54,697 nucleotides of DNA, taken from positions 1 through 54,697 of the forward strand of contig JAOARY010000074.1 of assembly GCA_025210335.1 (NCBI GenBank), given 5' to 3'. This DNA is from Peptostreptococcaceae bacterium. Lineage in GTDB: Bacteria; Bacillota; Clostridia; Peptostreptococcales; Peptostreptococcaceae. A program made the translations under genes and the position numbers. The notes below the pieces were generated by a model. That model made no database searches. It was not told the origin of the DNA and saw only the letters and a program-made list of their open reading frames with translations. The stretch's first letter is position 1; every line of letters starts with the position of its first letter. This document shows, in pieces, positions 25,378 through 44,798 of this stretch.

Positions 25378-25572
25378 ATGGATTTTACTTTTGCATTTCA
25401 AATATTAAATACAGTTATTTTAATTGCAATACCGATAATTTTGATTAAGTATATATCAAAATCTTTAAAAGAAAGAAAAATGCAAATTCAACAATTAGAT
25501 AAGGTTGCAAATGATGTTTCAAGAATGACATTGGAATTACAAAAATTAAACAATAAAATAAAATCAGAATAA
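25378..25572 (+). CDS. Small membrane protein with coiled coil
   Basis: 64 residues: one N-terminal membrane segment (about 8-26, ILNTVILIAIPIILI), a basic SKSLKERK stretch, then a coiled-coil-like helix to the end. Preceded by AAGGGGTG. Alone behind the glycyl radical operon and followed by a terminator. No family recognised; the layout is that of small clostridial membrane proteins of unknown function. Confidence 0.55.
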   Translation: MDFTFAFQILNTVILIAIPIILIKYISKSLKERKMQIQQLDKVANDVSRMTLELQKLNNKIKSE

Positions 25573-25627: not shown

Positions 25628-25707
25628 TTTTTGATATGGCAAATCAATATAGAAAATTAAAGATATAATCGGTTTTATTTTGTACAAAAATGAAAAAGGG
25701 GATTTTG

Positions 25708-26331
25708 ATGAAGATAATAATATCTAAGACTAAGGATTTTGTAAAAGAAAGATTGATGAATGAAAAATCAGGACATGACTATTGGCATACTATGAGGGTT
25801 TATAATAATGCTATTGATATTGCTAAAGAGGAACAAAAGGAAAATAAATTAGATATGATGGCTGTTGAACTTGGAAGTTTGCTTCATGATATTGCTGACC
25901 ATAAGTTTGGTTATGATGATGAAGATAGAAAAGAAATAATAGGAAAGTTCTTGATTAAATTAGATGTAGATAGTCAGACTATAGATAATGTAATACATAT
26001 AGCAAATAATATATCTTTTAAGAATAAGGATAAGAAAAACACAATAAATACTTTGGAAGGAAAGATTGTTCAAGATGCAGATAGACTTGATGCAATTGGG
26101 GCAATAGGTATTGCAAGAACATTTACTTTTGGAGGGTTTTATAAAAGAGATATGTATAATCCTATTGATGAGGATAATAATGAACATACAATAGCACATT
26201 TTTATGAGAAATTACTTTTATTAAAGGATAGAATGAATACCAAAACAGGTAAACAAAAGGCTCTTAAAAGACATGAATATATGAAGGAATTTTTAGATCA
26301 GTTTTATGATGAATGGGAAGGAAAGAGATAA
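25708..26331 (+). CDS. HD domain phosphohydrolase (YedJ-like)
   Basis: 207 residues from ATG 25708, which follows AAAGGGG; an ATG at 25690 is in frame but lacks a site. Metal-binding HD motifs: His in GHDYWHTMRV (about residue 21-30), HD in GSLLHDIADHKFG (about 60-72), and Asp in QDADRLDAIGAIGIART. Close in pattern to YedJ/YpgQ-type predicted metal-dependent phosphohydrolases, which act on nucleotides or other phosphoesters. Cytoplasmic. It ends 230 bp before the defence operon, with a terminator between, so probably not part of it. Confidence 0.88.
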   Translation: MKIIISKTKDFVKERLMNEKSGHDYWHTMRVYNNAIDIAKEEQKENKLDMMAVELGSLLHDIADHKFGYDDEDRKEIIGKFLIKLDVDSQTIDNVIHIANNISFKNKDKKNTINTLEGKIVQDADRLDAIGAIGIARTFTFGGFYKRDMYNPIDEDNNEHTIAHFYEKLLLLKDRMNTKTGKQKALKRHEYMKEFLDQFYDEWEGKR

Positions 26332-26562: not shown

Positions 26563-28272
26563 ATGTTAAAGGGATGTAATAATAAAAAGGAAATAGTAAT
26601 AACACTATATACAACAAGTAAATATAAAGAAAATGAATTTAATGAAATGGCTAAAGGGATGGTATATAAATTTAAAGCACTTAAAAATAAGAAAGATATA
26701 AATGAACCACAGAAGATGACAGATATTAAATCATTTATGAAGCAAAAGACTTTAGAAGCATATAAAAAATATAAAAGACCTATAATTGTTGAACATACAA
26801 TGCTTTCGATAACTCATTTTAATGGATTACCTAATCATATAACAGGTGAATTTTGTGATAAGATGAGTAATTATGAAATATGCAAACAAATGGAAGGAAT
26901 TAAATTAAGAGATGCGACAGCTAGAAGTGTAATAGGGTTTTGTGATGGAAAGAATATAAAAATATTTGAAGGTTTTGTAGAAGGATATATAGCTAATTCA
27001 CCAATTGGAGATAATGGCTTTGGTTGGGATAATATATTTATACCAATGGGAGAAATTGTTACATATGCACAGATGAGTCCAAAAGAAAAAAATAAAAAAT
27101 CAATGAGAAGAAAAGCTTTACAAGAATTAATAGATTATTTAAAGGATCATACCGTAGACTTTTTTGATGAGTCAGATAGTAATTTAGAAGACTTAAAAAA
27201 GGATTTAGTAGGATTAGAAAAACATAAAGATAAAGTAAAAGAAGGATTAATCGAATTTAATGAAGATAAAAATTTGATATTATTTGTTGGTGCAGGTGTT
27301 CCAAGAAATTTGAACTTACCATCTTGGTATGAACTTATGGAGGAAATAGGAGAAGATTTAGGTTTTGATAAGGATGTATTTATGGCTTCTGATAAAGATT
27401 TCTTATCTTTAGCAGAATATGCTAGTATAGTTGATTTAGAAAAATTCAAAAATAAATGTGTGGATAAGTTTAATTTAGATAAATTGGATAAAGATGAGTT
27501 GGATATAAATTATGAAATTGATAGATCTAATATATATAGGTATATAGTAAAATTAGAGCCTAAAAAAATATATACAACTAATTATGAAGACACAATAGAA
27601 AAGGCTTTTAGAATACATGGAAATCCTAATATAAAAATAGAAACTATAAAATTATCTAATGAAGAAAATGAACAAAAGGATAAATCTGGGAATGTGTTGG
27701 AAATAGTGAAATTACATGGAGATATAAACGATTTAGTGGGAAAAAAGGTGGATAATTTAAATGATTTAAATAAAAATATGGTGTTAACTGAATCGGGTTA
27801 TTTTAACGCTATTGATTGTATAGATAAGACAAATATAGATAAAGAAAATAATGAGAAAATTAATGAAGAAGATACACATACGCAAGGTGAAAATGAAAAG
27901 AATTGTAAATCGGAAGTATATAGGTATTTAGCGAAAGATTTAGGACAGAATAAGGGAAATGTAATTATTTTCTTAGGATATAGTTTGAGTGATTTTAATA
28001 TAAGATATTTCTTAGAAAAATGTAGAGAAAAGGCAAAGAAAGAAGAAAATAAAGGAGATAACGATAAAAATAAATTCTATATGTTTACAACAACGCCAAA
28101 TCCAATACAAGAAAAAATATTAAACCATAGAGATATAAAAATAATTTACGGAAAAGATCCAGAACCAAAGCAAGCTTTAAAAAAATTCTTATATGATATT
28201 GTGGAAGCGAAAAAGTATGAGAAAAAGAAAGATAAGGGAAATTCAAAAGAAGAAAATACGGAGGGACAGTAG
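26563..28272 (+). CDS. HAM1 (ITPase-like)-SIR2 fusion, predicted defence NADase
   Basis: 569 residues; first gene of the defence operon. Residues 10-195 are a HAM1/RdgB/ITPA-like inosine-nucleotide pyrophosphatase fold: TTSKYKENEF, VEHTMLSI then FNGLP (76-90), PIGDNGFGWDNIF (147-159), MSPKEKN and SMRRKAL (171-186). The ITPA signature VEDT is VEHT here and SHR is SMR, so catalysis is probably lost while nucleotide binding may remain. Residues 235-545 are a SIR2 domain: GAGVP (243-247), TTNYED with Asn340, KLHGD with His385, TESGYF, and GYSLSDFN (472-479), keeping the Asn and His needed for NAD+ cleavage. Inferred role: senses inosine nucleotides and depletes NAD+ during phage infection. RBS AAAAGGTG. 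Confidence 0.85.
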   Translation: MLKGCNNKKEIVITLYTTSKYKENEFNEMAKGMVYKFKALKNKKDINEPQKMTDIKSFMKQKTLEAYKKYKRPIIVEHTMLSITHFNGLPNHITGEFCDKMSNYEICKQMEGIKLRDATARSVIGFCDGKNIKIFEGFVEGYIANSPIGDNGFGWDNIFIPMGEIVTYAQMSPKEKNKKSMRRKALQELIDYLKDHTVDFFDESDSNLEDLKKDLVGLEKHKDKVKEGLIEFNEDKNLILFVGAGVPRNLNLPSWYELMEEIGEDLGFDKDVFMASDKDFLSLAEYASIVDLEKFKNKCVDKFNLDKLDKDELDINYEIDRSNIYRYIVKLEPKKIYTTNYEDTIEKAFRIHGNPNIKIETIKLSNEENEQKDKSGNVLEIVKLHGDINDLVGKKVDNLNDLNKNMVLTESGYFNAIDCIDKTNIDKENNEKINEEDTHTQGENEKNCKSEVYRYLAKDLGQNKGNVIIFLGYSLSDFNIRYFLEKCREKAKKEENKGDNDKNKFYMFTTTPNPIQEKILNHRDIKIIYGKDPEPKQALKKFLYDIVEAKKYEKKKDKGNSKEENTEGQ

Positions 28273-28366
28273 AGCAAATAAATTATATGAAAATATCAAT
28301 GCTGATATGTTTATTACTAAGCTTGATAATTATGGTAGTGAAATTACACTAAAGGGAGATTGTAAT

Positions 28367-31300
28367 ATGGCAGATAATAATATGAAAATAGGTTCAAGAA
28401 GACTTACTGTTAAAGAGTTAGAAGTTCTTTTAAAGGATTATAAAAATATATATGAACAGATAGGTTCTATTAGAGATAATGCATGGGAATTAAAAAATAA
28501 AATAGAAAATGATGAGAATTATAGAAAAATAATAAAAGAAGAACCAGAATTTATTAAGCATCATAATAATGTATTTTCGATACTTGGAACTAGAGGAAGT
28601 GGAAAATCATCTATATTAATTAGTATAAAATATACTATAATGAATCAAATTATAGAAAGAAAAAAGGGTACAAAGAATACTTTGGAGCATGACTCGAAAA
28701 GTCAAAAAAAACCATATAATATAGAATCATATGATACGGTACTTCCTATAATTGCACCTCAAGATATGGATGAAGATAGTGAATCACTTGGATGGATAAT
28801 TGGTTTTTTTGAAGATGAAGTAGATGAAAGTGAAAGATTATTTATTGAAGATAGAAGAATATTTGATTATCAAAATGAGAATTGTAATTTATGTTCTAAT
28901 AAAAGAATTAATACAAATCCGCTTAAAGAATCTTATAATGTGGTAAAGGAAGCATATTTTAAGAGAAAAAAAGATTATAAAAATAGACTTATGGATGTAA
29001 ATTCGGATTCAGATTATATTGATCTTAAAGGAGAAACTTTGTGTCAAGATGTTAGTTTGGCTAAAAAATTTAAGATATTTATAGATGAATTTGTGAAGTA
29101 TAAAAGGGCAGTAGCAGGAAGATATAAAGGATTTATTAAAGAACCCTTATTATTTGTATTCTTTGATGATGTAGATATAAGCACAAGAAAATGTATAGAT
29201 GTTTTAGAAACTATAATAAGATATCTAGCACATTCTAATATAATTACTTTTGTATCTGGAAATTATAAGACGTTTGAGGAAACAATAACCTTAAGATACT
29301 TGGAGCAAGATGGACTTTTGGATAAAGAACTTCAAGAGATTAATTTTACAAATTCAACAAATGACTCAAAGAATAATGCAATGAGAATAAGAAAAAAATT
29401 AACTTATGATTACCTAAAAAAAGTGCTTTCACCTGCACTTAGATATCATCTTACTAAAATTAAGGATGAAGATAAATACAATTTTGCTTATAGGATTGTT
29501 GAAGATGAAAATGAAGAAAAAACATCAGAAAAAGATGATGGTGTGCAATTGTATAAATTGATAGAAAATGCATTTGGTTTGGATGATGATAATTTTATGA
29601 AATATGAATTGGTATATCCAACTGATGATAAGAAATATGAAGTGATGAATAAGTTCTTTATGCCATTTGATAATAAACCTAGGGGACTTATAAATATTTA
29701 TTACTATCTAAATTCTATGTCGGATAAAGTAAATCTTGAGTTCGAAAAACAAAGAAAAGATAAAAAGAAAAAGATATTAAAAGATATATGGACTGAATCA
29801 GAATTAAATAAATTCCTTACCATAATAATAACATCTAATTCAAGATTAGATATATATAGAAAAACGATAAAGGATGTAATAAAGATAAAGAAAAATTATG
29901 ATGGAGAAATAGATGTTGATGTTGATTATTTTCAAATATGTGAAGGTGAAAAATTTAAAAATACAATAGTCGATGAAAACACAAAATTGCAAGTATTGAT
30001 TTTAGGTTTATTCTTTGATGGTTTGATATCAAATTTAAATAATAAAAAGAGCGATATTTTTATAGAAAGATATGATTATGATGAATATAAGGTTGTTTGT
30101 GATTATTTAGAAAGTGCTTTATCAAAAGGTGATGACATTCTTTTTAGACTAATCTATAAAACAAATAGAGTTTTTGAAATATTATATTTTTATGATAATG
30201 CTTTGAATTATTCATATAATAATAATTATATGGATATTAATAACAGAAATTTTGTAGAATATATAAAAAATATAGAAAAGAAAGTTAAAGAGAATGATAA
30301 ATATATTAAGCTTGATGAAAAACAATTGATAGGTTTGATTAATAAGAAAATTGTGATTGAGGAATTAGAGAGTTTTTCAAATAGTTTAAAAAAAATAGAT
30401 ACTAATAGTTTTGAGTATATAAAAAATTATTTGACTAAAAATATTATGAAATATAAAAATATATATCAATTTAATGATGAAATTATTAGTAATGATATAT
30501 ATTGGGGTTCAACTGCTGCACTCAAATTTGTACTAACAGCGGTAAAAAGTCTTGAGTATGATGATATTTTAGATTCTAAAATAGAGACTGAGAGATTAAA
30601 TTATTATAAAGAGTTTAAATCTGCAATTAAAAGAATTGAAGGAAATAAAGAGTCTAAGAATTTATATGAATACATCAAAATGGATAAAAATGAAAAAAAA
30701 ATAAATGCTTTATTTAATTTGGAGAATTTTAAAAAGCAAATTTTTATGTATGAAGGTAAAGATTTATTAAATGAAATGAAAACTTTGAAAAATTATTATG
30801 TAGAAATTTTTAATTCAGAAGATATAGATATTAAGTCGTATATAGACGAAAGTGTAAAAAAATTATTGGATGAAAAAATTAAAAATAAAACTTTATTTGA
30901 TGAAAGAACAGAATATAAGCCTATAAGTTTTGATAGTGTGGTTGAATATTATATAAATGAGAGCGATGAAGAAGTATTATGTGAGTTTAATCTTAGAGAT
31001 TATAAACATCATTTAGATAAGCTTTCCATAGAAATTCCTGATTATAATTTAATTTCTGATTTTCAAGTAAATAAAATAGCACCATATATTATGTATTATA
31101 TTATGGATAGTACATATGAATATTTATTAAATGAGAAAGAGGATATTAAAAAATTATATACATTTGATACTTTTTTTGAAGATTTGGACTTAGATGTTAA
31201 TGTAAATAAAGAAGAAAATAAGAAGAAAATAAAAGAATGCTACAATAGAGATTTGAATGTATACATATATTATAAGATTAGTGGTATTATTGCTCACGAA

Positions 31301-32221
31301 AATCCAAATGATATAATTGGAGATATTATTAAAGAATTGATAAAGAGAATATCTTTAAACAAGGAAATTTGCGAGCAAACTAAAAATATATCAGATTTTA
31401 GTTTAATATCTACAGTTTCAAGTGTTATGAAAAATTTAAATTATTTGGAAACTTTGTTTGGAATTAAAGATGTATTTGGATATGGTAATTATGAACATTT
31501 GGATATTTGGATGAATAAAGATAAAAATATAGAGATGAAATATATGATAGGATTATTTGAATTTAGTATTTTTGTTAAATCAAAAGGTAAGCTAAAATCT
31601 AAATATGTAATAACTGAGCAAGAATTTGACAAATTAACTGAAAAGATGGAGAAAAAAGTAGAAGAAAAATATAATGAGATATATGTGGGTACAGATGATG
31701 TTTTTAAGAAAATGTATAAATGCTATGAAAATATAATTCAAAGTCGAAAAAATTATAAAAATGCGATTAAAGAGAATTTCGATATTGATGAATTTAAATT
31801 TGATAATTTATCTAATTTAGAAAAGATAATAATTGAAAAAGATAGTATCTTAATTGATTTTTCTAAAGAATTAAAGATAGATTACTTTGTAAGAGGAGAA
31901 TATATAAGTGAAAAAGCAAATATAATTTGTTTGCTATATGAACTAATAGACAAAAATAGAGATAAAATATCATTAGATAATTTGAAATTTCAATTGAGCA
32001 AATTTGATAGAGAATTACATTCAGAATTTGAAAAAGATAAAAATAAGAAATTATCGAATGATGAACTTATGAAAATATTTGTTTATATGTGTTTCTTTGT
32101 AATCGTATACAAAGAAGAAAATAAAAAATCTAAAGCCAAAGAGTATGAAATATTTGCAAAAAAACTAAGAGAATTATTAGGCAATGAATATAACGAGCAG
32201 TTTATGGAACTATTAGACTAA
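28367..32221 (+). CDS. rdrA: RdrA-like P-loop ATPase (RADAR)
   Basis: 1284 residues from ATG 28367, chosen because AAAGGGAG lies just upstream; the open frame extends 58 codons further but overlaps the preceding gene. Walker A GTRGSGKS at 74-81. Walker B LLFVFFDDVD near 260-270, followed by a sensor-like strand IITFVSGNYKTF. The rest is a large, charged, helix-rich region without recognised domains. Order and partner fit RdrA, the ATPase that in RADAR assembles with the deaminase RdrB. It seems larger than characterised RdrA proteins (about 900 residues as I recall). A CNLC motif occurs near residue 180. The stop is 14 bp before rdrB. Confidence 0.82.
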   Translation: MADNNMKIGSRRLTVKELEVLLKDYKNIYEQIGSIRDNAWELKNKIENDENYRKIIKEEPEFIKHHNNVFSILGTRGSGKSSILISIKYTIMNQIIERKKGTKNTLEHDSKSQKKPYNIESYDTVLPIIAPQDMDEDSESLGWIIGFFEDEVDESERLFIEDRRIFDYQNENCNLCSNKRINTNPLKESYNVVKEAYFKRKKDYKNRLMDVNSDSDYIDLKGETLCQDVSLAKKFKIFIDEFVKYKRAVAGRYKGFIKEPLLFVFFDDVDISTRKCIDVLETIIRYLAHSNIITFVSGNYKTFEETITLRYLEQDGLLDKELQEINFTNSTNDSKNNAMRIRKKLTYDYLKKVLSPALRYHLTKIKDEDKYNFAYRIVEDENEEKTSEKDDGVQLYKLIENAFGLDDDNFMKYELVYPTDDKKYEVMNKFFMPFDNKPRGLINIYYYLNSMSDKVNLEFEKQRKDKKKKILKDIWTESELNKFLTIIITSNSRLDIYRKTIKDVIKIKKNYDGEIDVDVDYFQICEGEKFKNTIVDENTKLQVLILGLFFDGLISNLNNKKSDIFIERYDYDEYKVVCDYLESALSKGDDILFRLIYKTNRVFEILYFYDNALNYSYNNNYMDINNRNFVEYIKNIEKKVKENDKYIKLDEKQLIGLINKKIVIEELESFSNSLKKIDTNSFEYIKNYLTKNIMKYKNIYQFNDEIISNDIYWGSTAALKFVLTAVKSLEYDDILDSKIETERLNYYKEFKSAIKRIEGNKESKNLYEYIKMDKNEKKINALFNLENFKKQIFMYEGKDLLNEMKTLKNYYVEIFNSEDIDIKSYIDESVKKLLDEKIKNKTLFDERTEYKPISFDSVVEYYINESDEEVLCEFNLRDYKHHLDKLSIEIPDYNLISDFQVNKIAPYIMYYIMDSTYEYLLNEKEDIKKLYTFDTFFEDLDLDVNVNKEENKKKIKECYNRDLNVYIYYKISGIIAHENPNDIIGDIIKELIKRISLNKEICEQTKNISDFSLISTVSSVMKNLNYLETLFGIKDVFGYGNYEHLDIWMNKDKNIEMKYMIGLFEFSIFVKSKGKLKSKYVITEQEFDKLTEKMEKKVEEKYNEIYVGTDDVFKKMYKCYENIIQSRKNYKNAIKENFDIDEFKFDNLSNLEKIIIEKDSILIDFSKELKIDYFVRGEYISEKANIICLLYELIDKNRDKISLDNLKFQLSKFDRELHSEFEKDKNKKLSNDELMKIFVYMCFFVIVYKEENKKSKAKEYEIFAKKLRELLGNEYNEQFMELLD

Positions 32222-32235
32222 AAGGATGTGTTGAT

Positions 32236-35200
32236 ATGAAAAATTCTAAGAGTATGAGAACCATTGATCTTATGATTAAGACATCCTTACTTCCTATAAC
32301 TCAGGTGGAATACTTTGGTGTAGATATATTAGGTCTAAATGAGTCAGATAGAAAAGACTATATATACAAAAGTCTTAATAACCATATGAATATAGATAAT
32401 CTTGATGAAATCAATTTATTTTGGGATTTATTTTATAACAAGAGAAAGCTAAGTAAGATAAAGAAATTAGAATATGAAAATTTAATATACGAAAATAATA
32501 TAAAATATCAGCACAACAATTATATTATAGATTTGCTTACTCAATTTAGTGAGACATTCATATCTCAAAGAGACTCTAGGTTAGTATTCAAATACTGGGA
32601 AACAGAAAAAAACAAATATTTTAAGACATACAAAGGAATCAATAAGGTACTTGTATGGAACAGTTTAAACAGATATCTTGCTACAGATATACTAGGAGTA
32701 TTGTATTTGATTAACAATGATGTTAAGAATGAAGAATACCTACAAGACTATTATTCAAATATTGCATTAGAAGATATGCAATTAGAAAAAGTATTAAAAA
32801 AAGGGCTTGCAGAAACACATCTGCATGCCTCTGCTTCTAGGGATTTTTATTCTACATGGCAAAACTTAATGTCACCATACAATCAAAATGCAAAAATAGG
32901 GTTATTGGATAAGGTTCAAGTCATATCTAATAAGAATAAAAGTTTAAAGAAGCTTGTAAGAATAGCAAGTATATATAGAATGCTTATGGCTTATTATATA
33001 AAAAACAAAAATAAAATGCCGAACAACTTATGCTTTGGATGCTTTATAGAAAATATTTATTATAAAAATTTTGAAAAGCCATGTTCTAAATATGAAAGTA
33101 ATCCTAATAAAGATAGTTTCAAAGAAATTAATAATAAAAATGTATGTGATTATGAGGATGCAGATTATATGGTAAATGTTTATTACAAAAAGCCTAAATT
33201 AAGAATGTTTTTAGAAGGGTTATCTAAGATTGATTATTCTAATATAGAGAAATTTTCATTAGATGAATTAGATGGTTTTTATAAGATTATATTTGAGGAT
33301 ATTTTGGGATTAAGAAAGAAGAGGATTGATAATAAAAAAAGTGAAAGTTCAAAGGATATAATTGATTTTATTTTATTTGAACAAGATGATGATTATAATT
33401 CAAATATTAAGACTTATAGTGAAAATATATTTTTATTTAGATTAATAAATTTTTTAAAAAAGATTCAAAAGAAAAACTTATGTGAGGATTGGCAGTTTTT
33501 AAAGGAAAGTAGTTTAGCTAAAAGTGAAATATGTAATTTGGTACATGGCGATTATTTGCTTAGTGAGTTTTTTGTAAATTATTTAAAAATAAAAAATGAA
33601 GTATTTACTTTATTGGTTCAAGGAAATCAAATAAAAGGTCTTCTTAATTTTCAAAATTATTTTAAAAGGTCTACAAAAATCAGTAGGTTAGAAGACGAAC
33701 TTGATATGTGGGAATATAGATTCAGATATTTATTAAAAGACGAGAATCTTAGAAAATTAGAAATAAGAATAGCACCACCACCTGCCAAAGATAATAAGAA
33801 TAGATTAAGAAATCAATCGAATATAAAAGATGATATGAAAAAAGAACTTAAAAAAATTTTTGAATCATATTTAAAGGCAATTGCTCATTATATGGATTTT
33901 GATTATGAAAAAGTAAAAAATTTAGTCGAGGAGAAAGATAAGTACCCAAATTCTAATTATGATAGTTATACCAATGATGATATAAGATTTTTAAGAACCA
34001 AGATAAGAAGAAATATCCCAAAGCTATCTATCATATATCATTTTATAAAGAGTGATGATTCTAAGGTTGATAAAAAATGCTATATAGATTATAAAAAAGA
34101 TTATCAAAGAGAGAATTTATATTTTGAAGAACATAGAACTATTTATGATATGCAAGCAAAAGCAATATTGGAATTAAGAAGAGATATAAGTAATTTATCT
34201 TACTATATAGTTGGATTCGATGCAGCTAGTATTGAAGATTATACAGATCCTTGGGTTTTTGCACCTATATATGAAGAGGTAAGAGATAGCAAACATTTTA
34301 TGTTTGATAACAATCACAAAAAAATGCAATCTCTTAATTTTACTTTCCATGCTGGTGAAGATTTTAGGCATATATTAACGGGACTTAGAAGAATTGATGA
34401 ATCAATAAAATTCTATAAATATCATGCAGGAGATAGAATTGGGCATGCAATTGCACTTGGTCTTAATTTGGATTATTGGCAGAAGAAACATCCTATTGTT
34501 ATAATGCCTAAGATTGAGTATCTTGAGAATTTGGTCTGGCTTTGGGGACTATGTAAATACAAAGATACAATAATTGATTTAGGATATTTGGAAAGAAAGA
34601 TAATGGATATATGTAAAGATATATATATGAATACAGAGGGGATTACAATATATCTTTTGTGGGAAGTGTATGAAGCTAAGTTTCAAACAACTGATGATTT
34701 TATAAAGAATATAAAATATAAAGAAGACTGCATTTTAAATGGATTGATAGAGAAGAATAAGGATGAAGATGAGGTAGTAGATGATATGGACTTTGATATT
34801 TGGGATGAAAATTGTAAGTCAAGATGCTTTCAAGAACATAGCTCAAATGATTCTAAGAATATGAAAAGACCTTGTTTTAGATGGAATAAAGAAAAGCTAA
34901 AGATGGCTTATCATTGTAAAGTTATATTAAATAGAATGAGAGAGCCTATGAATGTTGAAGTTCCAAGAGATAAAATAGATATATTAAAAGAAATCCAAGA
35001 AATAATAAGAAATAAGGTAAGTAATAGTGGAATTATTGTAGAGACTAATCCTAGTTCTAATACTGCCCTTGGAGAGATTGAGAGTATATTTAATCACTAT
35101 ATAACTTCTCTTAATAAGATAGATACTATAAAGAATCATGATTCTTTGATGATTAGTATAAATACCGATGATCCATCTGTTTTTAATACCAATTTGAGTA

Positions 35201-35385
35201 ACGAGTTTGCATATATATTTTATTCTTTGGTTGAAAAGGGGTATTCAAAGGAAAAGGTATTAAAGTGGATTGATAAAATTAGACAACATGGTATGGATTC
35301 TAGTTTTATAAAGGATGATAGTGATATTGATGAGAATTATATTATAGAGATTATTAGAATCATAAATGATTTAAATGAGTATTGA
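32236..35385 (+). CDS. rdrB: RdrB-like adenosine deaminase (RADAR)
   Basis: 1049 residues, RBS AAAGGATGTG. All adenosine deaminase-superfamily active-site motifs are present in order: metal ligands His195 and His197 in AETHLHASAS; HAGED with His705 and the proton-transfer Glu708; RIGH with His737; and NTDDPSVF with metal/catalytic Asp978-979. The family converts adenine nucleotides to inosine nucleotides. RADAR RdrB was first reported as an RNA adenosine deaminase and later structural work implicated free ATP/dATP. The 500-residue insertion between the first His pair and HAGED is large. Cys clusters (CFGC near 265, CKSRC near 860, RPCFRW) may bind zinc. Longer than known RdrB (about 800-900 residues as I recall). 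Confidence 0.86.
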   Translation: MKNSKSMRTIDLMIKTSLLPITQVEYFGVDILGLNESDRKDYIYKSLNNHMNIDNLDEINLFWDLFYNKRKLSKIKKLEYENLIYENNIKYQHNNYIIDLLTQFSETFISQRDSRLVFKYWETEKNKYFKTYKGINKVLVWNSLNRYLATDILGVLYLINNDVKNEEYLQDYYSNIALEDMQLEKVLKKGLAETHLHASASRDFYSTWQNLMSPYNQNAKIGLLDKVQVISNKNKSLKKLVRIASIYRMLMAYYIKNKNKMPNNLCFGCFIENIYYKNFEKPCSKYESNPNKDSFKEINNKNVCDYEDADYMVNVYYKKPKLRMFLEGLSKIDYSNIEKFSLDELDGFYKIIFEDILGLRKKRIDNKKSESSKDIIDFILFEQDDDYNSNIKTYSENIFLFRLINFLKKIQKKNLCEDWQFLKESSLAKSEICNLVHGDYLLSEFFVNYLKIKNEVFTLLVQGNQIKGLLNFQNYFKRSTKISRLEDELDMWEYRFRYLLKDENLRKLEIRIAPPPAKDNKNRLRNQSNIKDDMKKELKKIFESYLKAIAHYMDFDYEKVKNLVEEKDKYPNSNYDSYTNDDIRFLRTKIRRNIPKLSIIYHFIKSDDSKVDKKCYIDYKKDYQRENLYFEEHRTIYDMQAKAILELRRDISNLSYYIVGFDAASIEDYTDPWVFAPIYEEVRDSKHFMFDNNHKKMQSLNFTFHAGEDFRHILTGLRRIDESIKFYKYHAGDRIGHAIALGLNLDYWQKKHPIVIMPKIEYLENLVWLWGLCKYKDTIIDLGYLERKIMDICKDIYMNTEGITIYLLWEVYEAKFQTTDDFIKNIKYKEDCILNGLIEKNKDEDEVVDDMDFDIWDENCKSRCFQEHSSNDSKNMKRPCFRWNKEKLKMAYHCKVILNRMREPMNVEVPRDKIDILKEIQEIIRNKVSNSGIIVETNPSSNTALGEIESIFNHYITSLNKIDTIKNHDSLMISINTDDPSVFNTNLSNEFAYIFYSLVEKGYSKEKVLKWIDKIRQHGMDSSFIKDDSDIDENYIIEIIRIINDLNEY

Positions 35386-35386
35386 T

Positions 35387-35420
35387 AAAGGTGTGTAGAT
35401 TATATCTACCGCCTTTTTTT
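35387..35420 (+). terminator. Terminator of the defence operon
   Basis: AAAGG-TG/GTAGA (35387-35399) pairs with TCTAC/CG-CCTTT (35405-35416) around a 5-base loop with one bulge, followed by T7. Separates the RADAR-like operon from the DUF262 gene. Confidence 0.85.
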
Positions 35421-35615: not shown

Positions 35616-37643
35616 ATGAAGGCAGACAATATAAATTTATTAGAATTTTTGGGTTCAAGTAAGAGAACCTTTAATATACCGGTATATCAACGAAACTATG
35701 ATTGGAAGAGAGAAAACTGCAAGAGATTATTTGATGATCTTATAAAGATTATTAAATTAAACAAAGAAGGGCATTTTTTAGGAACTATTGTATATGTAGA
35801 TGGTGACAAGAGTGCTAATTTTAGAGAGTTTGTAGTTATTGATGGACAACAAAGATTAACATCGACTATGCTATTATTAAAAGTATTATATGAATGTATA
35901 GAGGATGAATATATAAGACAAGATATATTAGAAGATTATCTTATAAATAAAAGAGCTCCAGAAAGATTAAGACTGAAGTTAAAACCCATAAAATCAGATT
36001 TTGATATATATAATAAGATAATAAATGATGAGGACTTGGAAGAAGAACACAGCAATCTATATAATAATTATAAATATTTTCATGAATTAATAGAATTATG
36101 TGAAATAAGTCCAAAGGAAATATTTTTAGCGGTACAAAAGCTTGAAATAGTATATATTCAATTAGATAGTGAAAAGGAAAATCCACAGCTTATATTTGAA
36201 AGTTTAAATTCAACAGGTTTGGATTTATCTCAAGCTGATTTGATAAGGAATTTTTTACTTATGGGTGAACCGTATGAAAGACAGGATTATTTATACAAAC
36301 AATATTGGATCAAAATAGAAATGTTGCTTCCTAGTACTATAATTTCTGATTTTATAAGAAGTTATATAACTTTAAAAAATCAATATATACCAAATAAAGA
36401 TAAGGTATATGAAGAGTTTAAATTATATGTTGAAACTCTAGGTGTGTATGATGTAAAAGATATATTAATAGAATTACTTTCATTTGCAAAGTATTATAGT
36501 TATTTTGTTTATTGTAATTGTAAAAATAATAAGATAAATAATAGGTTAGAACAGTTACAAAGGTTGAAATCTACAACTGCATATCCTTTTATACTTAGTA
36601 TATTTGAGGAATGTTATTCGAAGTTTAATATAGATGAAGATGAAGTTGTAAAATGTTTAGATGTTATAATTTCATATGTTTTTAGAAGAATAATTTGTGA
36701 TATACCTAAAAATGCATTAAACAAGATATTTGCATCCCTTCACAAAGATGTATTAAAGATTGAAGAACAGTTGTCATTACATGAAAAGGTATTTGTAGCT
36801 CTTTTAAATAAGAAGGGGAAAGGAATATTTCCAAGAGATGAGAATTTTAAAGAAAAATTTGTTACCAAAGATGTTTATAATTTTAAACAAAATAAATATT
36901 TGCTTGAAAAATTAGAATGTAAAAATAGCAAGGAAAGAATTGATTTTAATGATGTAACAATAGAACATATAATGCCACAAGCATTAACTCCAAAGTGGCA
37001 GGTTGATTTAGGTAAGAAATATAGAGATATTCATACAAAATATCTTCATAGAGTGGGAAATTTAACGCTAAGTGGTTATAATGGTGAGCTTTCAAACAAA
37101 AGCTATAGAGAAAAGAAGATAATACTAGAAGAATCGAATATCTATCTTAATAGAGAACTTACAAAGTATGAGTATTGGAATGAAGATACGATAAATAAAA
37201 GAGGTCATGAGTTATTTAAAAAAGCTAAGGTAATATGGCCTTTATTAGATGTAAAGATTAATAGTATAAATGATAATGATATAAGAAATGAATTTGAGCT
37301 TATGGAAGATAATAATGTTACTGGAAGAGAGCCATATGAAATAAATATAGTAGGAGAAAGAATAATAATTTCTTCATGGAGAGAATTTTTTAGAATGGTT
37401 TGTTCGAAGATGTATGAATATGATGGTGAGTTATTTGATAGTTTACTTAAGCATAAGGATTTTGAAGGAAGAAGAAAAACTATAATTGCAAATGAAGAAG
37501 AAAAATTAAAAAATCCATTTAAGATTAGTGATAGTGTATATATAGAACAGAATTTGTCGGCAAATGATGCACTTAATTATTCAAAATTGATAGTTGAAAA
37601 ATTTGAAGGAATGGAAGATGAAATAAAATATAAGATTAGATAG
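35616..37643 (+). CDS. DUF262/DUF1524 nuclease (GmrSD-like restriction)
   Basis: 675 residues. N-terminal DUF262 (ParB-like NTPase/DNA-sensing) domain: IPVYQRNYDW (21-30), HFLGTIV (53-59) and IDGQQRLTS (75-83). DUF1524 HNH-type nuclease domain: IEHIMPQAL with His451 and HRVGNLTLSGYNGELSN (about 476-493). A further 110-residue C-terminal part (about 560-675) resembles nothing I know. The two domains in one chain match single-chain GmrSD-type type IV enzymes that cut modified phage DNA; DUF262/DUF1524 proteins also act with phosphorothioate systems. Its own leader and terminator suggest a separate unit in the same defence island. Confidence 0.9.
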   Translation: MKADNINLLEFLGSSKRTFNIPVYQRNYDWKRENCKRLFDDLIKIIKLNKEGHFLGTIVYVDGDKSANFREFVVIDGQQRLTSTMLLLKVLYECIEDEYIRQDILEDYLINKRAPERLRLKLKPIKSDFDIYNKIINDEDLEEEHSNLYNNYKYFHELIELCEISPKEIFLAVQKLEIVYIQLDSEKENPQLIFESLNSTGLDLSQADLIRNFLLMGEPYERQDYLYKQYWIKIEMLLPSTIISDFIRSYITLKNQYIPNKDKVYEEFKLYVETLGVYDVKDILIELLSFAKYYSYFVYCNCKNNKINNRLEQLQRLKSTTAYPFILSIFEECYSKFNIDEDEVVKCLDVIISYVFRRIICDIPKNALNKIFASLHKDVLKIEEQLSLHEKVFVALLNKKGKGIFPRDENFKEKFVTKDVYNFKQNKYLLEKLECKNSKERIDFNDVTIEHIMPQALTPKWQVDLGKKYRDIHTKYLHRVGNLTLSGYNGELSNKSYREKKIILEESNIYLNRELTKYEYWNEDTINKRGHELFKKAKVIWPLLDVKINSINDNDIRNEFELMEDNNVTGREPYEINIVGERIIISSWREFFRMVCSKMYEYDGELFDSLLKHKDFEGRRKTIIANEEEKLKNPFKISDSVYIEQNLSANDALNYSKLIVEKFEGMEDEIKYKIR

Positions 37644-40017: not shown

Positions 40018-40161
40018 TAGTAATATTAACATTTCTTGAATTTATTATTGAAGATATAAAATTTTATAAAGAAGTTTGGGTCATAAGAAAAATAAATATA
40101 TTGTATGATATAATCAGCTTAATGAATATATTAAAAATACTTATTCAAAGAGGTGAGATGT

Positions 40162-41328
40162 TTGAAGTTTTTTCATACTGGAGATTGGCATTTGGGGAAA
40201 TTAGTTCATGGAATACATATGGATGAAGAACAAAAATATGTTTTGGATAAATTAATAGATAAGATAAAAATATATGATCCACAGCTTATTATAATAGCTG
40301 GGGATATTTATGATAGATCAATTCCGCCTGTAAGTTCGGTGGAATTACTAAATGAATTTTTAAATACTGTTGTTTTAAAAATGAAGAAAAAAATAATAAT
40401 GATATCAGGAAATCATGATAGTTCAAATAGACTTTCTTTTGGTAATAAACTTCTTGAAGACCAAGGGCTTTATATTGTTGGAGAGATTGATAAAGATATC
40501 AAAAAAATTGTTTTGGAAGATGAATATGGAAAGTTAAATATCTATCCAATTCCTTATATGGATGTTTCTATGGGCAGATTTATTTATGAAGATGATGAAA
40601 TAAAGACACATGATGATTTGCTTAAAAAAATTACAGATAATATAAAGTCTAATATGAATAAAGATGAAAGAAATATAGTCATATACCATGGATTTGTGAT
40701 TAATTTGAATAAGAAAGAAGATGTAGAAATTTCAGATTCTGAAAGACCTTTGAGTATTGGTGGTTCTGATTATATAGATGTGAATTATTTTACTGATTTT
40801 GATTATAGTGCATTGGGACATCTTCATAAGCCTCAAAAGGTATTAAATGAAAATATAAGATATAGTGGATCGCTTATGAAATATTCTTTTTCAGAGCATA
40901 ATCAAAGAAAGGCAATTACTTTAGTTGATTTAAAAGCTAAGGGAGATTTGTCTTATGAATTATTAGATTTAGTTTCAAGAAGGGATTTAAGAGTTATAAA
41001 GGGTAATCTAAATGATTTGATAGATGAAAAAATATATAAAAATACTAATGTGGATGATTATATAATGGCTATACTTACAGATGAGGGTGAAATATATGAT
41101 GCACCATCTAAATTAAAGGCAGTATATCCCAATTTATTAAAGATTGAATTAAAAAGAAATATTTCTGATAAAAAAATAGATATAGATAATGAAGATTTTG
41201 AGAAAAAAGATATATTAGAATTGTTTAAGGATTTTTATGAAGAAAATACAAATATAGAATTTGATGAAAATAAAAAAAATATATTAAGAGATTTTGCAAA
41301 AGAAATAAAGCTTTGGGGGGAAAAATAA
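40162..41328 (+). CDS. sbcD: Exonuclease SbcD (Mre11-like)
   Basis: 388 residues from TTG 40162, chosen because AAAGAGGTG is correctly spaced and the protein then begins MKFFHTGDWHLGK, the standard SbcD start. Metallophosphoesterase motifs: GDWHLGK (7-13), GDIYDRS (about 50), GNHDSSNR (about 86-93), YHGF (about 175) and ALGHLHKPQ (about 216). With SbcC forms the ATP-dependent nuclease that cuts hairpins and blocked DNA ends. The stop overlaps the sbcC start in TAATG, so the two are translationally coupled. Confidence 0.96.
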   Translation: MKFFHTGDWHLGKLVHGIHMDEEQKYVLDKLIDKIKIYDPQLIIIAGDIYDRSIPPVSSVELLNEFLNTVVLKMKKKIIMISGNHDSSNRLSFGNKLLEDQGLYIVGEIDKDIKKIVLEDEYGKLNIYPIPYMDVSMGRFIYEDDEIKTHDDLLKKITDNIKSNMNKDERNIVIYHGFVINLNKKEDVEISDSERPLSIGGSDYIDVNYFTDFDYSALGHLHKPQKVLNENIRYSGSLMKYSFSEHNQRKAITLVDLKAKGDLSYELLDLVSRRDLRVIKGNLNDLIDEKIYKNTNVDDYIMAILTDEGEIYDAPSKLKAVYPNLLKIELKRNISDKKIDIDNEDFEKKDILELFKDFYEENTNIEFDENKKNILRDFAKEIKLWGEK

Positions 41329-44300
41329 TGAAGCCTATAAAACTTACATTATCTGCATTTGGACCTTATAAAGATGAACAAATAATAGATTTTAATAAGC
41401 TAGAACAAAATAGTTTATTTTTGATAACAGGTGAAACTGGCTCAGGAAAAACGACAATATTTGATGCAATTTCTTACGCTCTTTATGCAAATGTTAGTGG
41501 TAGTACAAGGGATAATAAATATTTGAGAAGTCAATTTGCAGATATTAAAGATTTTACTTATGTTGAACTTGAATTTGAAGTTAGAAATAAAATATATAAA
41601 ATAAAAAGAATTCCTGAACAAGAAGTTCCTAAAAAAAGAGGAGAAGGGATGACAACCCAAAAGTCTGCGGTTGAATTACATTATTTAAATGATGATAAAA
41701 AGCCTCTTACAAGACAAAAGGATGTAGAAGTGCAAATTCAAAAAATCATAGGCTTAGATCATAATCAATTTAAACAAATAATGATGATACCTCAAGGTGA
41801 ATTCAAAAAACTACTGACTTGTTCTGTTGATGAAAGAGAAGGTATATTAAAGAAACTATTTGATACATCAATGTATGAGCTTTTGCAAAATAAATTAAAA
41901 GAAAAATCAAAAGAAATATATATAAAGATAAAAGATGAAAGAAATTTAAGAGATGACTCTATAAATAAAATAGATTTGGATTTTTCAAATGATTTATTAG
42001 AAAATGAAATTATAAAACAAGATGAAAATAAAGAAATAAATGAAGAAAATTTTATAAATCTATTAGAAAATTTGAAGGTATTAAAAGATAGTGAAAATAA
42101 GAATGTGGATTTGATACTTAAGTCATTGAACTCATTCATAGAAAAAAATAATGATATTTGTTTGATTTTAGATGAGAATCAAAAAAAATTAGAATTAGAA
42201 AAAGAAGATTTTATAAAATTAATAGAAAAGAAAAAATCTGATAATGAATTATTAAAGGAAAAAGAAAATATAGCTAATAAATTAGTATCTTTATTTGAAA
42301 ATAAAGAAACAAATAATTTAAAGAAATTAAAAATAGATAAAGCAAGTAAGGCTAAGGCGATAAATATAATAGATAAACAATATAATGAATTATTAAATGA
42401 TAAGAAAATTAATGATGAAAAATTGATATTATTAGAAAAAAATTTAATAGATTTAAAAGAAGAGCGTCAAAAAGCAAAAGCTAGTAAGGATAAAGAAGAA
42501 AGTGAAGAACAAAAAAAGCTAAGAGATAATATAAAATTACAAATAGACAAGTTAAAAGAAAAGAAAAAGATATTTAAGACTTTAGATGATTTGAATGAGG
42601 AATTAGAAAAGTATAAGAAAAATATAATAAAAGAAGAGAAAATATTATTACAAAAGGAAGAAGAAGAAAAGTTATTAAATGAAGATATAAAAAAAATACA
42701 GTTAAAAGAGGAAGAATTATTAAAAGAGGATAAAAAACTAAGTACAACAAATGAAATTGAATTAGAAATTGAAAATTTATCAAAAAATATAGAGAGTATA
42801 ATTTCTTATAAAGATAATCATATAGATATAAAAAAATCACAATTAAATGATGTAAGAATTATGTTTAAAAGATATGATGCTAAGAAGAAAGAAGAAGAAA
42901 CGAATTTAGATAAATTGAAATTAAGCCATAAAAAATTAAAAGAAAATATGCTTTTATTAAATAACAAGATTGAAAAAGCGAAGGAAGATTTGAAAAAAGA
43001 AAAAATTAATTTAAATGATATGGAAGCCAAGTTTATAAAAAATCAAGCGTATTTCTTGGCAACTAAATTAGAAGACAATGAGCCGTGCCCTGTATGTGGC
43101 TCTTTAGAACATGACAAAAATCATATTAAATCATTTGATAATTTAATAGAAATTAGTAAAGAAGATTATGAGAAGAAAAAAAATATATACAATAATAAGG
43201 AAGACGAAATAGAAAAATTAGAAAAACAAGCTAAAAAAGAAGATGAAAAATTAAGAGAAGAAGAAAATCAAATAACAAAATTAGAATATGAAGTCAAAGA
43301 AATAGATACTAAACTGAAAGATCAAAAAGATACAGGTATTCAAAAAAGAGCAGAGCTATACAAGGATTTTGATTATATAAAAAAACATTATATAAATATT
43401 CTTAAATTAAAAGAAGATGATAAATATTTAAAGGATGAAAAAATATTATTTTATATAGATGAATTTATAACAAAAGAAAAAGAAAATTTAAGGAAAAAGA
43501 AAGAAAATTTAAAGGAATTACAAAAGTTAATCAAAGATTTGGAGTTAAAAAAATCAGAATTAAAGCTTAAAAAAGAAAATAAAAGTAAACATATTGAAAA
43601 TTTAAGATTGGAAATAAAAAGTATAATAAATAAATTAAATAATATAAAAGAAGAATATAATAAAAAATTAGGTAGCTTGGAAGAAAAGAAAAAAACATTA
43701 GAAATAGATACTAATATAGATGAGCTCAATGATTTAATAAATAAAAAGCAAGAAGAATATATTTCTTTAGAAGAAATTTATAAAATGGCAGTAGATAAAT
43801 TTAATAAAATAACAAATGAATTAATAAAAATAGAGACTTCTAAGAGGTTATTAATAGAAACTAAAGAAAAGTTAGATGAAAAGATAAAACAAAAAAGAAA
43901 TGAATTAGAGGATGAAATAATTAAAAATGAATTTTTGGATTATGATGATTATAAAAAATCATATATACAAGAAGAAAAATTAAAGCTATTAAAAGATGAA
44001 TATGACGAATTTAATAAGATATTAAATGAATTAGAAAATAAATTAAAAGATTTGAAATTAAAAACAAAAGATATACAAAAAACAAATATAGATGATTTAA
44101 ATATACAGTTGGAAGAATTTAAATTAACTATAGCAAAAAATAATGATAGATTTAATTTTATAAAAAATAAAAATGAATATAATAAAAAGGCACTAGAAGA
44201 TATAATAAAGAAACATGAAAAAATAAAGAATTATGAAGAAGAAAATAAGGTGATTGATAATCTATCAAAAGTTGCAAATGCTGAGCGTGGTAGTGATAAT

Positions 44301-44798
44301 ATAAATAATATAAGTTTTGAAAGATATGTACTAGCAAAGTTTTTAGAGGATATATTAAGAGCATCGAATCAAAGGTTACTGAAAATGACTTCATCAAGAT
44401 ATGAATTAAAGATTCAATATGAAGTTCAAAACAAATCAAAAAAAGGTGGCTTAGACCTTGATGTATTTGATCATTTTACTGGTCAAAAAAGAAGTGTAAA
44501 AACGCTATCTGGTGGTGAAAGCTTTAAGGCATCTTTGGCTATGGCACTTGGACTTAGTGATATTATAAAATCATATGCTGGTGGAGTTAGTTTGGATACT
44601 ATATTTATAGATGAAGGTTTTGGAACATTAGATCCTGAATCTTTAGATAGTGCTATAAGCACATTGATAGAATTAAAGGAATATGGTAGACTAGTAGGTA
44701 TAATATCACATGTTCCAGAACTAAAAGAAAGAATTCCTACAAGGCTTGAAATCAAAACTTCAAAATTTGGTAGCAATATAGATGAATTCATATTATAA
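41328..44798 (+). CDS. sbcC: Exonuclease SbcC (Rad50-like ATPase)
   Basis: 1156 residues from ATG 41328, inside TAATG with GGGGGG upstream. Walker A GETGSGKTT near residue 35; long antiparallel coiled coils (about 180-560 and 620-960); zinc hook CPVC (about 588-591) at the apex; then signature LSGGESFKASLAMALG and Walker B TIFIDEGFGTLD near the end. An SMC-like DNA tether and ATP switch for SbcD. The coiled coil is extremely Lys/Glu/Asn-rich, reflecting the A-rich base composition. Confidence 0.96.
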   Translation: MKPIKLTLSAFGPYKDEQIIDFNKLEQNSLFLITGETGSGKTTIFDAISYALYANVSGSTRDNKYLRSQFADIKDFTYVELEFEVRNKIYKIKRIPEQEVPKKRGEGMTTQKSAVELHYLNDDKKPLTRQKDVEVQIQKIIGLDHNQFKQIMMIPQGEFKKLLTCSVDEREGILKKLFDTSMYELLQNKLKEKSKEIYIKIKDERNLRDDSINKIDLDFSNDLLENEIIKQDENKEINEENFINLLENLKVLKDSENKNVDLILKSLNSFIEKNNDICLILDENQKKLELEKEDFIKLIEKKKSDNELLKEKENIANKLVSLFENKETNNLKKLKIDKASKAKAINIIDKQYNELLNDKKINDEKLILLEKNLIDLKEERQKAKASKDKEESEEQKKLRDNIKLQIDKLKEKKKIFKTLDDLNEELEKYKKNIIKEEKILLQKEEEEKLLNEDIKKIQLKEEELLKEDKKLSTTNEIELEIENLSKNIESIISYKDNHIDIKKSQLNDVRIMFKRYDAKKKEEETNLDKLKLSHKKLKENMLLLNNKIEKAKEDLKKEKINLNDMEAKFIKNQAYFLATKLEDNEPCPVCGSLEHDKNHIKSFDNLIEISKEDYEKKKNIYNNKEDEIEKLEKQAKKEDEKLREEENQITKLEYEVKEIDTKLKDQKDTGIQKRAELYKDFDYIKKHYINILKLKEDDKYLKDEKILFYIDEFITKEKENLRKKKENLKELQKLIKDLELKKSELKLKKENKSKHIENLRLEIKSIINKLNNIKEEYNKKLGSLEEKKKTLEIDTNIDELNDLINKKQEEYISLEEIYKMAVDKFNKITNELIKIETSKRLLIETKEKLDEKIKQKRNELEDEIIKNEFLDYDDYKKSYIQEEKLKLLKDEYDEFNKILNELENKLKDLKLKTKDIQKTNIDDLNIQLEEFKLTIAKNNDRFNFIKNKNEYNKKALEDIIKKHEKIKNYEEENKVIDNLSKVANAERGSDNINNISFERYVLAKFLEDILRASNQRLLKMTSSRYELKIQYEVQNKSKKGGLDLDVFDHFTGQKRSVKTLSGGESFKASLAMALGLSDIIKSYAGGVSLDTIFIDEGFGTLDPESLDSAISTLIELKEYGRLVGIISHVPELKERIPTRLEIKTSKFGSNIDEFIL

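Follow-up and report, generated by a model that had tools for sequence, protein, structure and literature searches.

A divergent RADAR operon headed by a Kongming-like HAM1-SIR2 fusion in a Peptostreptococcaceae bacterium: a probable inosine-nucleotide alarm

Why should a RADAR defence operon open with a protein that resembles two components of another defence system, Kongming, joined in one chain? The question is raised by positions 1 to 54,697 of contig JAOARY010000074.1 (assembly GCA_025210335.1, a 3.28-Mb draft genome of a Peptostreptococcaceae bacterium), a stretch of 54,697 nucleotides here called the window. Between 26563 and 35385 on its + strand lie three co-directional genes, encoding in order a HAM1-SIR2 fusion, a P-loop ATPase of RdrA type and an adenosine deaminase of RdrB type; an earlier note, made from the letters of this DNA alone, had described them in these terms, and open reading frames (ORFs) and Pfam agree. 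The operon can be classed as a divergent RADAR to which a Kongming-like reader is joined, and it may work like both systems: probably the RADAR pair and the KomB-KomC-like fusion in front of it together form an alarm that is carried by inosine nucleotides. In Escherichia coli RADAR, inosine triphosphate (ITP) and its deoxy form (dITP) already accumulate by 5 min after infection, and both ATP and dATP are substrates for deamination by purified RdrB (PMC9994260). KomC of Kongming is activated when KomB has dITP bound (PMC12948488; PMC12774641), which agrees with the earlier note's account of a deaminase-derived dITP acting on a HAM1/SIR2 enzyme that consumes nicotinamide adenine dinucleotide (NAD+), an NADase.

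In the first gene, HAM1 and SIR2 are indeed fused in one protein, with Pfam Ham1p_like at residues 13-191 (E 6e-35) and SIR2_2 at residues 335-528 (E 1.9e-16). Both Kongming features, a KomB-type HAM1 and a KomC-type SIR2, are present by sequence match to solved structures, of which the best are KomC (8zsf) for the SIR2 half and KomB (8zsg) for the HAM1 half. The HAM1 half shares EHT and SMR with KomB; at these positions EDS and SHR stand in archaeal HAM1 chains, and DDS and SHR in the housekeeping HAM1 of the same genome, which is of RdgB type. Two housekeeping residues, an Asp and a His that we take to be catalytic, are replaced in the fusion as they are in KomB, by His at residue 78 and by Met at residue 181. 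An alignment of 115 rows (66 database fusions and 49 surveyed loci, the rows not being independent of one another) has His at residue 78 in 108 and the housekeeping Asp in none, Met at residue 181, where the housekeeping enzyme has His, in 109, and K22, K62, D156 and R182 each kept in at least 113; one locus, L020, has Ile at the HAM1 Asp site, perhaps by a slip of the alignment. On the SIR2 side H385 and N340 are present in all 115 rows, and H385 aligns with KomC H146, the residue mutated in structure 9xvc (H146N). The pattern of residues suggests a HAM1 half that would serve as a sensor, binding its nucleotide without hydrolysing it, joined to a SIR2 half that is probably a live NADase.

The deaminase matches RdrB in PADLOC and in the PDB, where 8fnw is its best hit, and H195, H197, H705, G707, E708, G736-H737 and D978-D979, which make up the HxH, HAGE, GH and DD motifs, are invariant in 22 of 22 RdrB-like rows (the rows for P0192 and for the protein of L008 seem to be one and the same). 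A housekeeping adenosine deaminase (ADA), with which the earlier note had allowed that it might group, was considered and rejected, NCBIfam giving at most 29 bits for such an assignment against 185 for RdrB, a comparison of scores and not of positions in a tree. The ATPase has G74, G77, G79 and K80 of its Walker A motif and D267 and D268 of its Walker B motif, numbered from a start at 28367, invariant in all five aligned homologues. A structure model of its first 700 residues, built on six sequences, has a mean predicted local distance difference test score (pLDDT) of 52, with 195 of the 700 residues at 70 or above and nearly all of these before residue 364; the C-terminal part is unreliable. 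Compared with the PDB, this model gives 19 hits at E ≤ 0.001, every one from RdrA or RdrA-RdrB entries and 8hr8 the best, the next fold standing at 0.052. Template modelling scores (TM-scores) for the RdrA hits reach only 0.20-0.28, because of the unreliable C-terminal part and because the window ATPase is longer than known RdrA chains. A homologue of the ATPase at another locus, L105 (phmmer 205 bits), matches NCBIfam RdrA at 8.1e-16, scoring 57.6 bits where the cut-off is 600. By the predicted fold of its N-terminal part the window ATPase is RdrA, and the earlier note's naming of both RADAR proteins, intact deaminase motifs included, stands.

On the reading as an alarm, infection would lead the RADAR pair to make ITP and dITP from ATP and dATP, one or the other of which products could be the signal; the HAM1 half would bind it and leave it intact, and the SIR2 half, switched on by this product of the window RdrB, would in turn cleave NAD+, halting the cell before phage can mature. 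RADAR would thereby stand in the place of KomA. Kongming uses a phage kinase (PMC12774641), and as RdrB acts on triphosphates such a kinase would not be needed here.

The pairing is not confined to the window. HAM1-SIR2 adjoins RdrA-RdrB in six loci read gene by gene, the window and L008, L018, L020, L064 and L173, so that the conservation in relatives on which the earlier note had made its proposal depend is found in five further places. L173, on a 4.59-Mb contig probably from Crassaminicella profunda, has the same three-gene order, with a fusion 43% identical to that of the window and with longest ORFs that give a one-base overlap and then a 15-bp gap. L008, in a metagenome-assembled genome (MAG) of Marinisporobacter, has the same genes in the same order, its RdrA being read as two ORFs of 590 and 525 aa. 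In the Lachnospiraceae, L018 (a Roseburia MAG) and L020 (Lachnoclostridium sp. An76) have the fusion, an extra gene and then RADAR, the extra gene (L018:11317-12552; L020:11412-12605) encoding a protein of some 400 aa that matches TPR weakly. By eye only, the N-terminus of the extra gene product of L018 (FISYSS) looks TIR-like, and directly after RdrB at the same locus is a dGTP triphosphohydrolase gene (L018:17730-19244; NCBIfam PRK01096, 463.3 bits, cut-off 439). L064, from Enterovibrio sp. ZSDZ35, is a bona fide RADAR (RdrA 825 bits, cut-off 600; RdrB 995.5 bits, cut-off 800) followed by separate HAM1 and SIR2 genes, the first of which begins about 300 bp after RdrB, a gap that makes a promoter of its own possible. 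The closest relative found of this RADAR, L143 (RdrB 77% identical), has RdrD after RdrB (260.4 bits, cut-off 230), and KomBC thus occupies in Enterovibrio the site of a usual accessory, a replacement of the sort that the earlier note had proposed. Among database sequences, at least 11 of 66 fusion clusters apparently share a contig with RdrB, the longest contigs being exactly equal in length, when 240 of 947 RdrB matches are compared (mean 0.34 and maximum 3 in a control with shifted lengths). Eight of the 11 are on contigs below 170 kb; the other three are on megabase contigs, for which a shared contig is no sign of adjacency. One of the three, P0004/P0094 (4589101 bases), is L173, in which the fusion is adjacent to RADAR.

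A quick tree of HAM1-SIR2 was made from 63 rows, comprising 39 of the 49 two-domain loci (10 near-duplicates or similar were dropped) and 24 of the 66 database fusions, with the RADAR label of 11 database rows resting on contig sharing, in three cases on megabase contigs; one of the latter, P0009, is nearest in the tree to L016, an orphan fusion. The deep branches have weak support, and four rows (P0023, L020, P0050 and L008) sit on long ones. KomBC of L064 belongs to a clade of split KomBC in which five of the seven KomA-linked rows are also placed (97-100% support in the SH-like approximate likelihood ratio test, SH-aLRT), apart from the fusions of the window and the Lachnospiraceae, and RADAR linkage changes at least four times among rows with an assigned context. 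As the Enterovibrio KomBC nests among KomA-linked relatives, the simplest reading of the tree is that RADAR gained the HAM1-SIR2 module two or more times.

Several results weigh against the reading as an alarm. Repeated acquisition is the simplest account and not proof, because changes in the tree cannot tell gain from loss. Searches of PADLOC, NCBIfam and the PDB by sequence give no RdrA match for the ATPase, and the deaminase reaches 185.2 bits with NCBIfam RdrB against an equivalog cut-off of 800; the cut-offs for RdrA and RdrB are passed by the proteins of L064 and not by those of the window, and the window operon is for this reason termed divergent, or RADAR-like. The HAM1-SIR2 survey took in 80 of 351 confirmed genome places (further pattern matches existed, and some contigs end near the genes), and its 88 loci, 87 from scans together with L114, include 39 with SIR2 and no HAM1. 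Among the 49 two-domain loci, 35 have neither RADAR nor a co-directional KomA nearby, 10 have KomA and four have RADAR, so the module can exist without either partner; three of the 35 (L022, L027, L071) have a KomA-like gene on the other strand. Five of eight fused loci read directly are with RADAR and three (L011, L016, L174) have none nearby, the L016 genome having RdrB on another contig than the fusion. From the other side, RdrB-like genes at E ≤ 1e-30 occur in seven of 391 genomes sampled from the class of the window, at eight loci, and the window is the only one of the eight with HAM1-SIR2; among 329 Vibrionaceae genomes, one of 11 that bear RdrB has HAM1-SIR2 beside it. The fusion is rare, being found in one of 71 genomes of the family of the window and one of 391 in the class sample (a second match there, in G168, covers part of SIR2 only), and in one of 397, three of 206 and two of 16 genomes of the families of L018, L016 and L008, respectively.

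That HAM1-SIR2 genes and RADARs mostly occur without each other in these surveys, and that a GmrSD-type restriction gene is next door, would suit two separate defence systems which share an island and a transcript and each act alone. We consider this unlikely, given the same order and tight spacing in L173, with a fusion as diverged as 43% identity, and in L008, the overlap or short gap between the fusion and the gene that follows it in L020 and L018, and the location of the Enterovibrio KomBC at the site taken by a known accessory in the nearest RADAR found. A different role for the HAM1 half has to be considered as the NCBIfam HAM1 models that the fusion matches are (d)ITP/XTP pyrophosphatases and as the conserved lysines common to it and the housekeeping copy of the same genome are kept: it could be a clean-up enzyme that hydrolyses ITP and dITP and so shields the cell from RADAR, SIR2 being triggered in some other way. 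This seems very improbable, since the Asp and His of the RdgB-type enzyme of this genome and of archaeal HAM1 are replaced just as in KomB, and KomB is described as a dITP-binding activator of KomC (PMC12948488). Least probable of all is a structural role, with the fusion built into the RADAR assembly as a subunit and SIR2 switched on by contact with RdrA and not by a diffusible nucleotide, as might be thought from the accessories of other RADAR operons (RdrD in L143, an annotated SLATT in L113 and a weak SLATT match in L148), for in Kongming KomBC work with a small deaminase of unrelated length and the Enterovibrio KomBC nests among KomA-linked relatives, a swap that a free messenger explains more simply.

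The proposed alarm, with RADAR as its source, can be set beside known systems. With RADAR the operon shares an RdrA, by fold, and an RdrB-like deaminase, adjacent and in that order, but it has the HAM1-SIR2 fusion in place of a SLATT or RdrD accessory and its proteins are divergent. With Kongming it shares a HAM1 that has KomB-type residues and a KomC-type SIR2, but KomB and KomC are in one chain and the 326-aa KomA is replaced by RdrA-RdrB. The canonical Kongming order, ADA-HAM1-SIR2, was found in L114 and in E. coli L159; the window operon lacks a KomA-type single-domain deaminase and so is not Kongming, and the only such candidate in its genome is an ADA, 29% identical and on another contig. 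A KomA query gave nothing at E ≤ 0.001 in the L018, L020 and L008 genomes; in this genome and that of the Enterovibrio its only matches were ADA homologues, none above 31% identity and all on other contigs. ThsA of Thoeris, which is among the sequence matches of the fusion in PADLOC and the PDB, and other SIR2 NADase effectors are likewise SIR2 effectors tied to a nucleotide signal, but here the sensor would be HAM1 and not a SLOG or macro domain, and the maker of the signal a deaminase and not a TIR protein (PMC11204291). The CRISPR-associated Cad1, a CARF-adenosine deaminase, also has a deaminase turning ATP into ITP in defence (PMC11645235); it differs in having CARF for cyclic oligoadenylate, and the available part of that source mentions no HAM1-SIR2 reader.

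The flood of ITP and dITP made by RADAR has been taken as a disturbance of nucleotide balance (PMC12948488). Because the same pairing recurs in distant bacteria, RADAR may not only poison but also raise a chemical alarm. A broader proposal, which is quite possible and which we hold only tentatively, is that RADAR is at heart a second-messenger generator sounding a (d)ITP alarm, with an accessory slot for interchangeable readers, HAM1-SIR2 here and possibly SLATT or RdrD elsewhere, and that poisoning is only part of the protection. A predicted inosine-nucleotide reader within RADAR operons makes the idea of ITP or dITP as messenger directly testable and, if it is true, deaminase-made signals and their readers would be exchangeable modules. 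There may be relevance for gut bacteria: one of the database RdrBs with about 62% identity to the Roseburia RdrB carries the name Blautia wexlerae, and three RdrBs of this kind apparently share a contig with a fusion cluster, their longest contigs being equal in length. No paper pairing RADAR with HAM1-SIR2 was found by title or abstract in a search that covered few subscription papers, and the pairing is not claimed to be unpublished.

Coordinates of the operon and its features are collected in Table 1. The longest ORF of the ATPase would begin at 28193, though the likelier start is 28367, with AGGGAG upstream by eye, which leaves 94 bp between the fusion and the ATPase in place of an 80-bp overlap; 14 bp separate the RdrA stop from the RdrB start, and by eye each of the three genes is preceded by a Shine-Dalgarno-like sequence.

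Table 1. Positions of the operon genes, domains, motifs and terminator in the window
Feature	Positions	Strand	Basis
HAM1-SIR2 fusion (KomB-KomC-like), 569 aa	26563..28272	+	Pfam; PDB KomC 8zsf 4.4e-31, KomB 8zsg 2.1e-27
HAM1 domain, residues 13-191, predicted inosine-nucleotide sensor	26599..27135	+	
HAM1 H78	26794-26796	+	
HAM1 M181	27103-27105	+	
SIR2 NADase-like domain, residues 234-547	27262..28203	+	alignments to PDB matches
SIR2 H385, aligned with KomC H146	27715-27717	+	
RdrA-like AAA+ ATPase, 1284 aa from likely start	28367..32221	+	predicted fold, 8hr8 E 2.1e-10
RdrA-like ATPase as longest ORF, 1342 aa	28193-32221	+	
Walker A GTRGSGKS of ATPase	28586..28609	+	
Walker B DD of ATPase	29165..29170	+	
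RdrB-like adenosine deaminase, 1049 aa	32236..35385	+	PADLOC 9.5e-36; NCBIfam 2.4e-54 (below cut-off); PDB 8fnw 2e-25
RdrB HxH motif, residues 195-197	32818..32826	+	
RdrB HAGE motif, residues 705-708	34348..34359	+	
RdrB GH motif, residues 736-737	34441..34446	+	
RdrB DD motif, residues 978-979	35167..35172	+	
Intrinsic terminator, bulged stem-loop then T-run	35387..35416	+	folding

The terminator that the earlier note had placed after the deaminase is borne out by a stable stem-loop with a T-run, the 43-nt stretch that holds it folding at -13.8 kcal/mol (z -5.84, with none of 200 shuffles equally stable); a consensus terminator scan gave none on the + strand, and none inside the operon either. 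The absence of a SLATT/Csx27-type accessory, also claimed there, agrees with a hydropathy scan of ORFs of at least 45 aa between 24 and 41 kb, which found no SLATT, RdrD or Csx27-type accessory at the operon and whose only membrane-like + strand ORF (64 aa, 25378-25569) is outside it, and with the two small ORFs downstream of the operon, for which no NCBIfam model matched. An HD-domain gene upstream (25690-26331) was tried as a conserved fourth part and rejected, having no match at E ≤ 1 among 1491 ORFs of the surveyed loci. The GmrSD-type gene directly downstream (35616-37643) has Orf5 as its best PADLOC match, and beyond it are SbcD/SbcC (40153-44798) and then RecQ (45420-47597).

The genome of the window has a second RADAR-like locus, L104:292-11462 (G000:C54:21291-32461), with RdrA and RdrB homologues. 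Its pair is preceded by a 1263-aa gene that scores 207.2 bits with the NCBIfam model of a type III CRISPR-associated RAMP, TIGR03986 (cut-off 161.35), making it a RAMP-RADAR pairing; a repeat search of L104 and of 19-kb stretches on either side gave no CRISPR-like array. Elsewhere, RADAR has beside it a VanZ family gene in Cetobacterium (L112:11701-12129), a gene annotated as SLATT, weak in Pfam, in Aureibacter (L113:10718-11422) and a gene with a weak SLATT match in the Vibrionaceae (L148:4670-5350). HAM1-SIR2 also has other company. In Stutzerimonas and Pseudomonas, at loci such as L003-L007, HAM1 and SIR2 genes stand paired, and the stretch examined contains nothing that matches KomA or RdrB; the neighbours in L004 include globin and YebC. 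In L033 a KomB-KomC-like pair adjoins a 1695-aa gene with Eco57I/N6 methylase matches, and L035 has a gene of similar size. Two database proteins of 750 aa, P0070 and P0071, combine IMP dehydrogenase and HAM1 domains.

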